The notes beneath the pieces were generated by a model. The model worked only from the letters and a program-made list of their open reading frames with translations. It did no database searches and had not been told where the DNA came from. Shown here in pieces: positions 36,643-42,414 of a DNA stretch of 64,000 nucleotides. The position numbers and the translations under genes were made by a program. The stretch's first letter is position 1. Every line of letters starts with the position of its first letter. Source of the stretch: Halosaccharopolyspora lacisalsi (GTDB lineage: Bacteria > Actinomycetota > Actinomycetes > Mycobacteriales > Pseudonocardiaceae); contig NZ_JACGWZ010000007.1 in assembly GCF_014137975.1 (NCBI RefSeq), forward strand, positions 310,001 through 374,000, in the 5' to 3' direction.

Positions 36643-36671
36643 CGCGAGTCCACAGGAGGTGTGTGGTCTTC

Positions 36672-37043
36672 ATGCGTCATTACGAGCTCATGGTCATCCT
36701 CGACCCGAGCCAGGACGAGCGCAACGTCGCTTCGTCCTTGGAAAACTTCCTCAAGGTCATCCGCAACGACGGTGGCAGCATCGAGAAGGTCGACGTCTGG
36801 GGACGTCGCCGCCTCGCCTACGAGATCAACAAGCAGACCGAGGGCGTCTACGTCGTCGTCGACGTCAACAGCGAGTCCGCTTCCATGCAGGAGCTGGACC
36901 GTCAGCTCAACCTCAACGAGATGGTGCTGCGCACCAAGGTCCTGCGGCACGTCGCGCAGCCCCGCAAGGAAGCCCGCCTCGCCCGCGCGAACGCCAAGTC
37001 CGGCGGCAAGACCGCCCCCAGCGAGGCCACCGCGTCCGCCTGA
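36672..37043 (+). CDS. rpsF: 30S ribosomal protein S6
   Basis: 123-aa ribosomal protein ([42 protein letters not shown]), binding 16S rRNA together with S18. The C-terminal 25 residues are a basic Ala/Lys-rich extension longer than the 96-aa mycobacterial protein. ATG 36672 gives the conserved start; GTG 36663 is in frame and closer to AGGAGG but adds three residues. First gene of rpsF-ssb-rpsR-rplI. Confidence 0.95.
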
Positions 37044-37103
37044 TCGCTTCTCAGCGATCGACGGCGCCCCTAGCCGCACCAAGAAGACTGGAGCCCGCAG
37101 GCG

Positions 37104-37577
37104 ATGGCTGGTGAGACCGTAATCACGGTGGTCGGCAACCTGACCGCCGATCCGGAACTGCGCTTCACCCCTTCGGGAGCAGCGGTGGCGAACTTCACGG
37201 TCGCCTCCACTCCCCGGACCTTCGACCGCCAGAGCGGCGAGTGGAAGGACCAGGAAGCGCTGTTCCTGCGCTGCAACATCTGGCGACAGGCCGCCGAGAA
37301 CGTGGCCGAAACGCTTACCCGCGGTATGCGCGTGGTCGTGCAGGGGCGCTTGCGCCAGCGTTCCTTCGAGACGAAGGAGGGCGAGAAGCGCACCGTCGTC
37401 GAGATGGAGGTCGACGAGGTCGGCCCGAGTCTGAAGTACGCGACGGCGAAGGTGAACAAGGTCAGTCGCGGCGGCGGGGGCCAGACGGGCGGCGATTCCG
37501 CGCCGTCCAATGACCCGTGGGGCTCGGCTCCGCCCGCCGGTTCCGGCGGCGGGTTCAGCGACGAGCCGCCCTTCTGA
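37104..37577 (+). CDS. ssb: Single-stranded DNA-binding protein
   Basis: 157-aa protein that coats single-stranded DNA in replication and repair. The OB fold spans residues 1-112 ([39 protein letters not shown]), followed by a Gly-rich linker and the acidic tip FSDEPPF that recruits partner proteins. It lies 60 bp after rpsF; its position in the ribosomal operon is conserved in actinobacteria. Confidence 0.96.
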
Positions 37578-37636
37578 GCAGCGGCCCGACGGCCCTACCC
37601 CCAGACGAAGTTTTCGCTCGCTTAAGGAGCTAGCAC

Positions 37637-37876
37637 ATGGCCAAGGCGCCCGTGCGCAAGCCGAAGAAGAAGGTCTGCGCTTTCTGCAAGGACAAGGCTG
37701 CGCTGAGCATCGATTTCAAGGACACCACGCTGCTGCGCAAGTACATCTCCGACCGGGGCAAGATCCGTGCCCGGCGCGTGACCGGCAACTGCAGCCAGCA
37801 CCAGCGTGACGTCGCCACCGCGGTGAAGAACGCCCGCGAGATGGCGCTGCTGCCCTACACCTCGACCGCCCGCTGA
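37637..37876 (+). CDS. rpsR: 30S ribosomal protein S18, zinc-binding (C+) type
   Basis: 79-aa basic protein with the zinc-ribbon half KVCAFCKDK (C14, C17) and a later cysteine and histidine in GNCSQHQ, the C+ form. A cysteine-free paralogue used in zinc shortage is common in actinobacteria but is not in this window. GGAGCTAGCAC precedes ATG 37637. Confidence 0.96.
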
Positions 37877-37903
37877 CCGACCGACCTCGTTAGGAGACAC
37901 GTC

Positions 37904-38356
37904 GTGAAGATCATTCTGACCGCGGACGTGGCCAACCTCGGTTCCTCGGGTGACATTGTCGAGGTTCGCGACGGCTACGCCCGGAACTACCTGCTGCCCC
38001 AGAACCTGGCCATCGTGGCCACCAAGGGCGCGCAGAAGCAGGTCGAGACCATCCGGCGCTCGCAGGAGGCCCGTCGGGTTCGCGATCTGGAGCACGCCCG
38101 GGAACTCCAGCAGCAGCTGGAGAAGCTGGACACGGTCTCGCTGCCCAAGAAGGTTTCCAAGAAGGGCAAGCTGTTCGGTTCGATCACCGAGTCCGACGTG
38201 GTCGCCGCCGTGCGCAAGGCCGGTGGCCCGCCGCTGGACAAGCGGTCCGTGGACCTCAAGGGGCACATCAAGTCGCTGGGCAAGCACTCGGTGAACGTGC
38301 GGCTGCACCCGGACGTCAACGCCTCGATGGACGTCCTGGTCACCTCCACGGAGTAA
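37904..38356 (+). CDS. rplI: 50S ribosomal protein L9
   Basis: 150-aa two-domain ribosomal protein: N-terminal rRNA-binding domain ([34 protein letters not shown]), a long central helix (about 45-75) and a C-terminal domain ([14 protein letters not shown] ... [16 protein letters not shown]). GGAG lies upstream of the GTG start, 27 bp after rpsR. A hairpin follows, so dnaB is probably transcribed separately. Confidence 0.96.
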
Positions 38357-38428
38357 GAAGAGCCGCCACGCGCTCACGCCGACACGACCGGATCGGTTCC
38401 TGTTCTCAACCGGTCGATGAGTGGATAC

Positions 38429-38454
38429 ATCCGACACGCCGAAGCGCGTCGGAT
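38429..38454 (+). terminator. Hairpin terminator after rplI
   Basis: ATCCGAC / GTCGGAT plus inner CGC / GCG across one mismatch, loop CGAA, 73 nt after the rplI stop. Confidence 0.5.
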
Positions 38455-38484
38455 TAGCGACATGCCGCAGTAAAGCGGTTCATG

Positions 38485-38625
38485 CTGTCCACAAGTTATC
38501 CACAGGGCTTGACCTGGGGTTTCCATGGGATCTCCACTGGTTTTCCCCAGGTTTTCCCCAAGTGGGATGCTGTCCTGTGGATAACTTCGGCACTTCTCCA
38601 CAAGTTGTCCCCACTCTTGTCCACA
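38485..38625. other. DnaA-box cluster upstream of dnaB
   Basis: In 141 bp lie TTATCCACA (38496-38504), its complement TGTGGATAA (38576-38584) and TTGTCCACA (38617-38625), all perfect boxes, plus near matches CTGTCCACA (38485-38493), TTCTCCACA (38594-38602) and TTGTCCCCA (38605-38613), and two TTTTCCCCA (38541, 38552). The rest of the 473-bp gap (38357-38829) has no gene. No dnaA or dnaN is present, so this is not the standard oriC locus; a DnaA-controlled promoter or titration site is the likeliest reading. Confidence 0.8.
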
Positions 38626-38829
38626 GCCCTGTTTGCCTCCTTCCGCGCGGCGGTCTAGCTTCATCGCGCGGGGAGTCGCGACAGCCGTGGAGTGAACCCG
38701 CTCGAGGCCGCCCGGAGTTTCCGAAACCGGGGTCGGCGAGCACCGCAGACACATCGTTGGCAAGGACGGATCCGCCGCCCTCCGGGCGAGATGGTCCGAC
38801 TCGGCGCGTCCAGGAGGTGGCAGAGACCG

Positions 38830-41800
38830 GTGGCGCTGACCGACGAACGCGGGGCCAACCCCTCTCAGGGAGGGGACGGGCGCTCGGGACGCGAACAGAC
38901 CTTCGACCGGCAGCCTCCGCAGGACCTGGAGGCCGAGCAGTCCGTCCTCGGCGGGATGCTGCTGAGCAAGGACGCGATCGCCGACATCGTCGAGGTCGTC
39001 CGCCCCCACGACTTCTACCGCCCCGCCCACCAGGCCATCTACGACTGCGTCCTGGACCTCTACGGGCGCGGTGAACCCGCCGACCCGATCACCGTCTCCG
39101 CCGAGCTGGAGCGCCGCAACGAGCTGTCCCGCGTCGGCGGCGCCCCCTACATGCACACCCTGATCGCGACCGTTCCCACGGCGGCCAACGCGAGCTACTA
39201 CGCCGAGATCGTCGCCGAGAAGGCGGTGCTGCGCCGACTGGTCGAGGCGGGCACCCGCATCGTGCAGTACGGCTACAACGGCTCCGAGGGCGCTGCGATC
39301 GAGGAAGTCGTGGACCGCGCCCAGGCGGCCGTCTACGACGTCACCGAGAACCGCACCAGCGAGGACTACGCCGCGCTGGAGGACCTGCTGCAGCCGACGA
39401 TGGACGAGATCGACGCCATCGCGTCGCGCGGCGGGGACGCCCAGGGACTGCCCACCGACTTCACAGACCTCGACGAGGTCACCAACGGCCTGCACGCCGG
39501 GCAGATGGTGATCGTGGCCGCCCGCCCCGGCGTCGGCAAGGCGCTGGCACTGGACACGCCGCTGCCCACCCCGCGCGGCTGGACCAGCATGGGCGAGGTG
39601 GCCGGGGGAGACCGGCTCCTCGGCGTCGACGGCCGTCCCACGACCGTCGTGGCCGCGACCGAGGTGCTGCACGACCGCCCCTGCCACGAGATCGAGTTCA
39701 ACGACGGCACCGTCGTCGTCGCCGACTCCGAGCACCGCTGGCGGCTGGCCGACGGACGGATCCTGACCACCGAGCAGCTGGCCGCCGAGGACACCCCGCG
39801 GCTCCCCCCGCACGAACGACTCCGGCTACCGGAGCGGGAACTGCCGGTGGCGCCGTACGTGCTGGGGGTCTGGCTGCTGGCGGGGGACCCGGACACCGGC
39901 GGCCTGCGCACCGACGACGCCGAGCTAGTGACGAACCTCGAGCTGGAGGGCGTCGAACCCGGCGACGGACCGCTTTTCGGCGACGAGATCGCCGAGCGGC
40001 TCACCGACCTGGGCACGTGGCGGGACCACGACCTGCCCGCCGAATACCTGCGGGGCAGTGAGCAGCAGCGCCGGGCACTGCTGGCGGGCATGCTCGACGC
40101 GGGCGGTTCCGTGTCCTCGGACGGCACCATCGGCCTGACCATCAGCGAACTCGCTTCCGTCCGGGCCCGGGAGCTGGTGCTCAGCCTCGGTTACGCCTGC
40201 ACGGCGACCCCGAACTGGGAGGACGACGGCGACGAGTTCGACACCTCGGTGCTCGTCTTCGACTCCGGCCCCGACGAGGTGTTCCGGCTCGGACGCAACA
40301 ACGAGCTGCACAAGCGCCTCCGCCGGGAGTCGGACGAGCAGCCGGCGCGCACCGTCGTCGCCGTACGGCCCGTCGACAGCGTGCCGGTGCGCTGCGTCGA
40401 GGTCGACGCGGCCGATCGGCTGTACCTGGCCGGCCGGTCGATGATCCCCACCCACAACTCCACCCTCGGGCTGGACTTCGCCCGCTCAGCCTCGATCAAG
40501 CACGGCATGGCCAGCGTCATCTTCTCGCTGGAGATGGGCCGCACCGAGATCGTCATGCGGATGCTCTCGGCCGAGGCCCGCATCCGGCTGGGCGACATGC
40601 GCGGCGGGCGCATGACCGACGACGACTGGACGCGGCTGGCGCGGCGGATGAGCGAGATCAGCGAGGCACCGCTGTTCATCGACGACTCGCCGAACCTGAC
40701 CATGATGGAGATCCGCGCGAAGGCCCGGCGGCTCAAGCAGCGCAACGACATCAATCTGATCGTCGTGGACTACATGCAGCTGATGACCTCGGGCAAGCGC
40801 GTCGAGTCCCGGCAGCAGGAGGTCTCGGAGTTCTCCCGGAACCTCAAGCTGCTGGCCAAGGAGCTCAACGTTCCCGTCGTGGCCATCTCGCAGCTCAACC
40901 GCGGTCCCGAACAGCGCAACGACCGCCGCCCCCAGCTCTCCGACCTCCGCGAGTCGGGGTGTCTGACCAGCGGCACCCGCCTGCTGCGCGCCGACACCGG
41001 GGCCGAGGTCACCTTCGGCGAACTCATGGAGACCGGGGAGCGCCCCATCGTCTGGTCCCTGGACGAGCGGATGCGCATGGTGCCCCGGCCGATCACCAAC
41101 GTCTTCTCCAGCGGTGTGAAGGAGGTCTTCAGGGTTCGGCTCGCCTCCGGCCGCGAGATCGAAGCGACCGCGAACCACCCGATGCTGACGGTCCGCGACT
41201 GGCTACCGCTGGGGGAACTCGCCGTGGGCGACCGCGTCGCGGTCCCGCGCAGCGTTCCCGAACCGCTCGGCACCGAGTCGATGCCCGAGCCCGAGATCGT
41301 CATGCTGGCGCACCTGACCGGCGACGGCTCCTTCGTGAAGCGCCAGCCGATCCGCTACGCCGGCGTCGACGAGGCCAACCTCGAAGCCGTGACCGAGGCA
41401 GCGAAGCACTTCGGGGTCACACCGGTCCGGGACGAGTACGCCTCGGCCGAGGTGACGACGTTGCGGCTTCCGGCGCCGTATCCGCTCGCACGGGGCGAGC
41501 GGAACCCGATCGCGGCGTGGCTGGACGACATGGGTCTGTTCGGCCTGCGCAGCCACGAGAAGTTCGTCCCGGAGCGGGTGTTCTCCCTGCCGCGCGAGCA
41601 GATCGCCCTGTTCCTGCGCCACCTCTGGGCCACCGACGGGTCGGTGCGCTGGGACGAGACCTACGGTCAGGCCCGGATCCACTACGCCACGTCGAGCAGG
41701 CGTCTCGCGGACGACGTCACCAACCTGCTACTCCGGTTGGGCGTCTTCGCCCGGATCAAGACCGCGAGCAAGGCGGGGGACCGGGACGGTTACCACGTGT

Positions 41801-42414
41801 TGATCTACGGCGGCGAGAACCAGCTGCGCTTCCTGGAGGAGGCGGGAGTTCACGGTGCTCGTTCCCCGCAGGTCGACGTCGTTACCGAGAAACTGCGCTC
41901 CGCCGTCGGGAACACCATCTGCGACACGATCCCCGGGGAGGTGCGGGGACGAGTACGTACGGCTCTGCCCGACCGTTCCGTGACTCGTCGCGAGTTCGCG
42001 ACACGGCTGGGCACGGAATTCTCCGGTTCTGCCACGTGGAAGCGCGCACCCAGTCGAAGCCGGTCGGGCGGGGCCGCCGTTCTCGAGGACACCGAGCTGG
42101 ATAACCCGGCGGCCCGTGACGTGTTCTGGGACGAGATCGTGGAGATCACCCCACTGGGCGAACAGCCGGTCTACGACGCCACGGTCGACGATACGCATAA
42201 CTTTGTATCCAACTGCATAGTTATGCACAACTCCCTCGAGCAAGATGCTGACATGGTGATTCTCATTCACCGGCCCGACGCGTTCGAGCGGGACGATCCA
42301 CGCATGGGCGAGGCGGACCTGATCCTGGCCAAGCACCGCGCGGGACCGACGTCGACGGTGACCGTGGCGCACCAGCTGCACTACAGCCGCTTCGTCGACA
42401 TGGCCAAGGAGTAG
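38830..42414 (+). CDS. dnaB: Replicative DNA helicase precursor with two inteins
   Basis: 1194-aa precursor; splicing leaves a helicase of about 464 aa. The N-terminal domain (QDLEAEQSVLGGMLLSKDAI) binds primase; the RecA-like motor carries a Walker A (ARPGVGK-S) broken by intein 1, Walker B (LIVVDYMQLM) and a later motif (QLSDLRESG-S) broken by intein 2. Extein 3 ends FVDMAKE. GTG 38830 begins VALTDERGANPSQ, with AGGAGG 12 nt upstream; longer in-frame starts read into the DnaA-box region. Without splicing the ATPase cannot work, because both inserts interrupt the active site or its neighbour. Confidence 0.95.
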   Translation: MALTDERGANPSQGGDGRSGREQTFDRQPPQDLEAEQSVLGGMLLSKDAIADIVEVVRPHDFYRPAHQAIYDCVLDLYGRGEPADPITVSAELERRNELSRVGGAPYMHTLIATVPTAANASYYAEIVAEKAVLRRLVEAGTRIVQYGYNGSEGAAIEEVVDRAQAAVYDVTENRTSEDYAALEDLLQPTMDEIDAIASRGGDAQGLPTDFTDLDEVTNGLHAGQMVIVAARPGVGKALALDTPLPTPRGWTSMGEVAGGDRLLGVDGRPTTVVAATEVLHDRPCHEIEFNDGTVVVADSEHRWRLADGRILTTEQLAAEDTPRLPPHERLRLPERELPVAPYVLGVWLLAGDPDTGGLRTDDAELVTNLELEGVEPGDGPLFGDEIAERLTDLGTWRDHDLPAEYLRGSEQQRRALLAGMLDAGGSVSSDGTIGLTISELASVRARELVLSLGYACTATPNWEDDGDEFDTSVLVFDSGPDEVFRLGRNNELHKRLRRESDEQPARTVVAVRPVDSVPVRCVEVDAADRLYLAGRSMIPTHNSTLGLDFARSASIKHGMASVIFSLEMGRTEIVMRMLSAEARIRLGDMRGGRMTDDDWTRLARRMSEISEAPLFIDDSPNLTMMEIRAKARRLKQRNDINLIVVDYMQLMTSGKRVESRQQEVSEFSRNLKLLAKELNVPVVAISQLNRGPEQRNDRRPQLSDLRESGCLTSGTRLLRADTGAEVTFGELMETGERPIVWSLDERMRMVPRPITNVFSSGVKEVFRVRLASGREIEATANHPMLTVRDWLPLGELAVGDRVAVPRSVPEPLGTESMPEPEIVMLAHLTGDGSFVKRQPIRYAGVDEANLEAVTEAAKHFGVTPVRDEYASAEVTTLRLPAPYPLARGERNPIAAWLDDMGLFGLRSHEKFVPERVFSLPREQIALFLRHLWATDGSVRWDETYGQARIHYATSSRRLADDVTNLLLRLGVFARIKTASKAGDRDGYHVLIYGGENQLRFLEEAGVHGARSPQVDVVTEKLRSAVGNTICDTIPGEVRGRVRTALPDRSVTRREFATRLGTEFSGSATWKRAPSRSRSGGAAVLEDTELDNPAARDVFWDEIVEITPLGEQPVYDATVDDTHNFVSNCIVMHNSLEQDADMVILIHRPDAFERDDPRMGEADLILAKHRAGPTSTVTVAHQLHYSRFVDMAKE
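39541..40458 (+). other. DnaB intein 1 (Walker A site, class 3-like, degenerate endonuclease)
   Basis: 306-aa intein (precursor residues 238-543) inserted after GVGK and before STLGLDF. It starts with Ala rather than Cys/Ser. Trp follows the block B His (EHRW), block F has a Cys (PVRCVEVD) and block G ends PTHN: the Trp-Cys-Thr set of class 3 inteins, in which the block F Cys starts splicing. The homing-endonuclease motifs are eroded: the second reads LLAGMLDAGGS where LxDADG is expected, and the first is WLLAGDPD. It lies at the same site as the mycobacterial DnaB intein. Confidence 0.85.
40960..42231 (+). other. DnaB intein 2 (class 1, apparently intact LAGLIDADG endonuclease)
   Basis: 424-aa intein (precursor residues 711-1134) inserted between LRESG and SLEQDADM. 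It has Cys1 (CLTSGTRLL), block B ATANHPML, two intact LAGLIDADG motifs (AHLTGDGSF and LWATDGSV), block F YDATVDDTHNF and C-terminal VMHN followed by Ser. All residues for standard splicing and homing are present. Its last 45 bases and the first 45 of the following extein use AT-rich codons (ATA, TTT, GTA, CAA, GAT, ATT) unlike the rest of dnaB. Confidence 0.88.

Follow-up and report, generated by a model that had tools for sequence, protein, structure and literature searches.

The region upstream of the replicative helicase gene dnaB in Halosaccharopolyspora lacisalsi contains a dense array of DnaA boxes that runs up to a predicted promoter. We consider it probable that this dnaB regulatory region carries a cooperative, promoter-phased DnaA filament that modulates, most likely activates, dnaB. 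DnaA binding and regulation at dnaB are likely, and DnaA is probably an activator there, the sign being less certain than the binding. The array is conserved and in all likelihood functional; regulatory elements of this kind are already known, and it is found here in a new lineage and with a precise geometry. The new elements are the promoter-phased architecture and two companion motifs, the latter apparently undescribed. The link between DnaA and dnaB, measured only in mycobacteria so far, is hereby extended to the whole class, and the geometry of the array is exact and testable, predicting both activation and a dependence on helical phase.

The DnaA-Box Array

The window, that is, the entire 64,000-nucleotide stretch that was analysed, has the gene order rpsF-ssb-rpsR-rplI, array, dnaB. 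The rpsF-ssb-rpsR-rplI operon lies upstream of the array at 36663..38356 on the forward strand, and the target gene, dnaB, follows on the same strand at 38830..42414, with a GTG start behind AGGAGGTG. The closest named relative, as judged by the N-terminal region of DnaB, is Halopolyspora algeriensis (87% identity), which places the organism within the Pseudonocardiaceae group. Two intein-like insertions are apparent in the dnaB gene (38830-42414), the first immediately past the Walker A sequence PGVGK and the second, with splicing and LAGLIDADG domains, past DLRESG.

A first-pass annotation of the sequence had placed a terminator for the rpsF operon ahead of the array. The operon does precede the array, but the terminator was not confirmed: hairpins are possible at 38383-38480, yet the fold of this segment is not unusual (z -1.56) and it showed no U-tract terminator. 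An Rfam search of the region for riboswitches or other structured RNAs returned no match except a sub-threshold snoRNA inside rpsF, which was put down to chance.

The DnaA-box cluster in 38485-38625 is genuine. Scoring against the consensus TTRTCCACA yields three perfect and three one-mismatch boxes in these 141 bp, in agreement with the first-pass count of three perfect and at least three one-mismatch boxes, and the types are also as described there, namely two perfect TTATCCACA boxes on opposite strands and one perfect TTGTCCACA. The first two forward-strand boxes, 11 bp apart, form pair A (38485..38504), which consists of CTGTCCACA with one mismatch at 38485-38493, 148 bp upstream of the predicted -35 element, and a perfect TTATCCACA at 38496-38504, 137 bp upstream of it. 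Pair B (38541..38560, forward strand) is made from two degenerate boxes, both reading TTTTCCCCA, at 38541 and 38552, again 11 bp apart and at distances of 92 and 81 bp from the -35; in an alignment, the relatives have better boxes at these positions. The second perfect TTATCCACA is on the reverse strand at 38576-38584, 57 bp from the -35. Finally, the forward-strand triplet C comprises TTCTCCACA (38594-38602, one mismatch), TTGTCCCCA (38605-38613, one mismatch) and the perfect TTGTCCACA (38617-38625), which precede the -35 by 39, 28 and 16 bp, respectively.

Dinucleotide shuffling predicts 10.3 boxes with one mismatch per 64 kb, equivalent to 0.023 per 141 bp, and at this rate the Poisson probability of finding at least six boxes in 141 bp is about 2e-13. 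Elsewhere in the window, the maximum is two boxes per 160 bp. The whole genome (5.37 Mb in 16 contigs) has 41 perfect boxes, and the dnaB array is the only place where three of them fall within 150 bp, which bears out the unusual density claimed in the first-pass annotation. Tandem box pairs with an 11-bp spacing and no more than two mismatches in all are found twice at the dnaB array; the only others in the genome are a single one at oriC and a palindromic site on contig C8. The reversed pattern, used as a control, gave none on the forward and one on the reverse strand, even at three mismatches.

Contig C8 has, around 2002-2044 within C8:260400-264400, a palindrome of the TTGTCCACA-AGC-TGTGGACAA type with a further TCATCCACA close by, apparently intergenic and ahead of a predicted membrane protein. 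It is possibly an extra DnaA site, and it recalls the palindromic Rv0010c-Rv0011c site in M. tuberculosis.

Helical Phasing Relative to the Promoter

The predicted dnaB promoter occupies 38633..38661 on the forward strand and consists of a -35 element, TTGCCT (38633-38638), a 17-bp spacer and a -10 element, TAGCTT (38656-38661). A promoter of the form TTG...17-18 bp...TANNNT was found upstream of dnaB at 72 of 81 loci, and an alignment of 17 upstream regions displays pair A, pair B and triplet C together with a conserved -35/-10 pair.

Across the 72 loci with a predicted promoter, almost all of the distances from box to -35 are 16/17, 27/28, 38/39, 49, 60, 71, 81, 92, 103, 137 or 148 bp, a ladder that represents a conserved geometry and not 72 separate events, as the loci share descent and are not independent draws. 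For the distances between boxes, the phase coherence at 11 bp is 0.77. In the window, the distances of 148, 137, 92, 81, 39, 28 and 16 bp occupy the same 11-bp rungs as in the relatives. Since the boxes sit on an 11-bp ladder, the array lies along one face of the helix, anchored to the predicted promoter. The box nearest to the promoter stops 7-8 bp short of the -35 and overlaps neither the -35, the -10 nor the start site, which is predicted near 38667.

Conservation Upstream of dnaB

Conservation upstream of dnaB in relatives, which the first-pass annotation had proposed as a check, was found both within the order and beyond it. At least three boxes are present in the 200 bp upstream of dnaB at 69 of 80 Pseudonocardiales loci, and the same test applied to the 3 kb downstream of the dnaB start was positive at none of the 80. 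The 11 loci below the threshold are mostly from Pseudonocardia and metagenome bins. In a class-wide sample, 23 of 40 genomes reach this threshold of three boxes per 200 bp, compared to 0.01 expected from shuffling. An unbiased search returned TTATCCACA as the top-ranked 9-mer upstream of dnaB, present in 31 of 34 diverse actinobacteria (1.2 expected). Three of 33 class regions are altogether devoid of a box close to TTATCCACA. The dnaB region in a record under the title Rhodococcus rhodnii NRRL B-16535 resembles Kibdelosporangium loci, and the record is possibly mislabelled.

With a simple signature, rplI was detected upstream at 63 of the 80 Pseudonocardiales loci and 13 of the 40 class loci, although the signature is crude and its non-detection at a given locus is suggestive only. 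The boxes persist where rplI is not detected directly upstream, which suggests that the cluster travels with dnaB and not with the ribosomal operon.

Probable DnaA Control of dnaB

DnaA was located upstream of dnaB by IDAP-seq in M. tuberculosis and by ChIP-seq in M. smegmatis, and the DnaA variant I282T binds less at the dnaB promoter and shows, uniquely, a reduced expression of dnaB (PMC7738170). The array shares its place and box consensus with this mycobacterial dnaB site, as well as an upstream rplI in the sampled mycobacteria; the boxes here are more numerous and closer to the consensus, and binding was measured there and is predicted here. At the sampled mycobacterial loci, the boxes precede the start of the DnaB match by 188-336 bp. 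Among the sampled genomes, one that encodes a DnaB with an N-terminus near-identical to PDB 2r5u (M. tuberculosis) has the homologous boxes as well. The H. lacisalsi DnaA, identified in its own genome, has the box-recognition signature GGRDHTTV.

The first-pass annotation had suggested DnaA control of helicase supply, a proposal that is well supported by the phasing, the conservation across the class, the way in which the cluster follows dnaB and the mycobacterial data (PMC7738170). Our model is that DnaA, in all likelihood ATP-bound, would load cooperatively on at least seven boxes at whole-turn spacing, so that the protomers would line one face of the DNA and end about 8 bp upstream of the -35 of a sigma-A-type promoter. 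From this array, DnaA would contact RNA polymerase and modulate, most likely activate, transcription of dnaB, and the supply of helicase would thereby be tied to the level of active initiator. For this organism we infer all four of cooperativity, ATP dependence, polymerase contact and direction of control. An activator is favoured because the I282T mutant both binds less and under-expresses dnaB and because the array ends 7-8 bp before the -35.

An unlikely alternative is that the boxes constitute a titration or DnaA-inactivation locus that buffers free DnaA near the origin and limits re-initiation, with the location at dnaB being incidental. The cluster is indeed of high density, and in complete class genomes the usual distance between dnaA and dnaB is 34-143 kb, so that dnaB is duplicated early. 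One comparison is E. coli datA, which, like the array, is a dense cluster of DnaA boxes outside oriC, although the two are not homologous loci. datA is IHF-dependent and situated at a tRNA locus, and we know of no promoter phasing there. The Streptomyces clusters H24, H69 and D78 resemble the array in having multiple high-affinity boxes outside but near oriC in an actinomycete; they reportedly change the initiation frequency and are said to have been studied as titration sites, which speaks for such a role. However, titration requires no exact promoter phasing, yet the distances to the -35 are quantised, and the cluster is retained at dnaB even next to a different upstream neighbour. Titration may occur as a side effect alongside control of dnaB.

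A little less probable again is that DnaA bound to the same array represses dnaB, in the way that it acts on the dnaA promoter. The dnaA promoters of several bacteria are DnaA-repressed, and boxes near the -35 might hinder the polymerase, but the last box leaves the 7-8 bp noted above before the -35 and overlaps neither promoter element nor the start site, and in the mycobacterial DnaA mutant weaker binding goes along with lower, not higher, dnaB expression (PMC7738170). The activating sign is suggested by one DnaA point mutant from another family, and a repressor could have the same geometry.

Companion Motifs

Besides the phased boxes of the favoured activator model, the dnaB upstream region contains two further conserved motifs, which are its least explained part. 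M1 is a tandem at 38432..38467 on the forward strand, with CGACACGCCG at 38432-38441 and CGACATGCCG at 38458-38467, giving a period of 26 bp. Most Pseudonocardiales loci have CGACACGCCG upstream of dnaB as a 26-bp repeat, and in the genomes of six relatives the exact tandem occurs once per genome, always at dnaB. The sampled mycobacteria have CAACACGCCC-27 bp-CGACACGCCG in the place of M1. M2 is found beside box pair A at 38508..38519 on the forward strand, where the sequence is CTTGACCTGGGG, a relative of TCTGACCTGCGG.

At least one copy of M1 is present at 23 of 24 thinned Pseudonocardiales loci against 3.0 expected, but both motifs were first spotted by eye in the alignment, making the Pseudonocardiales statistics partly circular and the class-wide set more independent. 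In the latter, TCTGACCTGCGG was found in either orientation in 14 of 33 regions (2.2 expected), compared to none for the reversed motif, and the unbiased 9-mer search recovered a variant of the M2 core in 13 of 34 (1.5 expected). Further M2 sites, mostly intergenic, exist in the four genomes that were searched, in excess of a reversed-motif control. Of the 20 genomic TSTGACCTGCGG sites that were inspected, a rough gene call places 12 between genes; a regulon was considered for M2 and set aside, the neighbours of the inspected sites having no evident common function.

We know of no protein that binds M1 or M2. It is conceivable, though we hold it only tentatively, that the region works as a composite switch, joining the promoter-phased DnaA filament to two widely conserved factors, one reading the tandem CGACACGCCG and the other TCTGACCTGCGG. 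If so, the supply of helicase in actinobacteria would be gated by DnaA together with a second replication regulator. Located at the helicase gene, M1 and M2 offer conserved handles for fishing out their binding proteins. The GACAC core of CGACACGCCG makes WhiA a conceivable binder, but the WhiA motif is GACAC only, and the main text of the WhiA study makes no mention of dnaB (PMC3781837).

The Chromosomal Origin

The absence of dnaA from the window, remarked on in the first-pass annotation, is explained by its location on contig C9 at 100906-102573. The same contig carries the oriC of the genome, where 12 boxes fill the interval from dnaA to dnaN, the latter named from the usual gene order. 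In this assembly, the array and dnaA are on different contigs, and for the array to lie away from dnaA is unremarkable: it is the rule in the class, since dnaB and dnaA are about 34-143 kb apart by position in 17 genomes that are complete or nearly so.

The first-pass suggestion of a displaced or secondary replication origin element at dnaB is unsupported and highly improbable, for although the box density is comparable to that of oriC, the genome already has its ordinary 12-box oriC on C9, the array has no dnaA/dnaN neighbourhood of the kind by which an oriC is recognised, and a 40-bp AT scan found no AT-rich unwinding element beside the dnaB boxes, the maximum being 0.525 (versus 0.675 at oriC), a value that 26 of 133 ordinary window stretches also attain. 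Upstream of dnaA itself, at 1239-1259 of the C9 excerpt, there is a pair of perfect boxes with a 12-bp spacing, as autoregulation of dnaA would lead one to expect.
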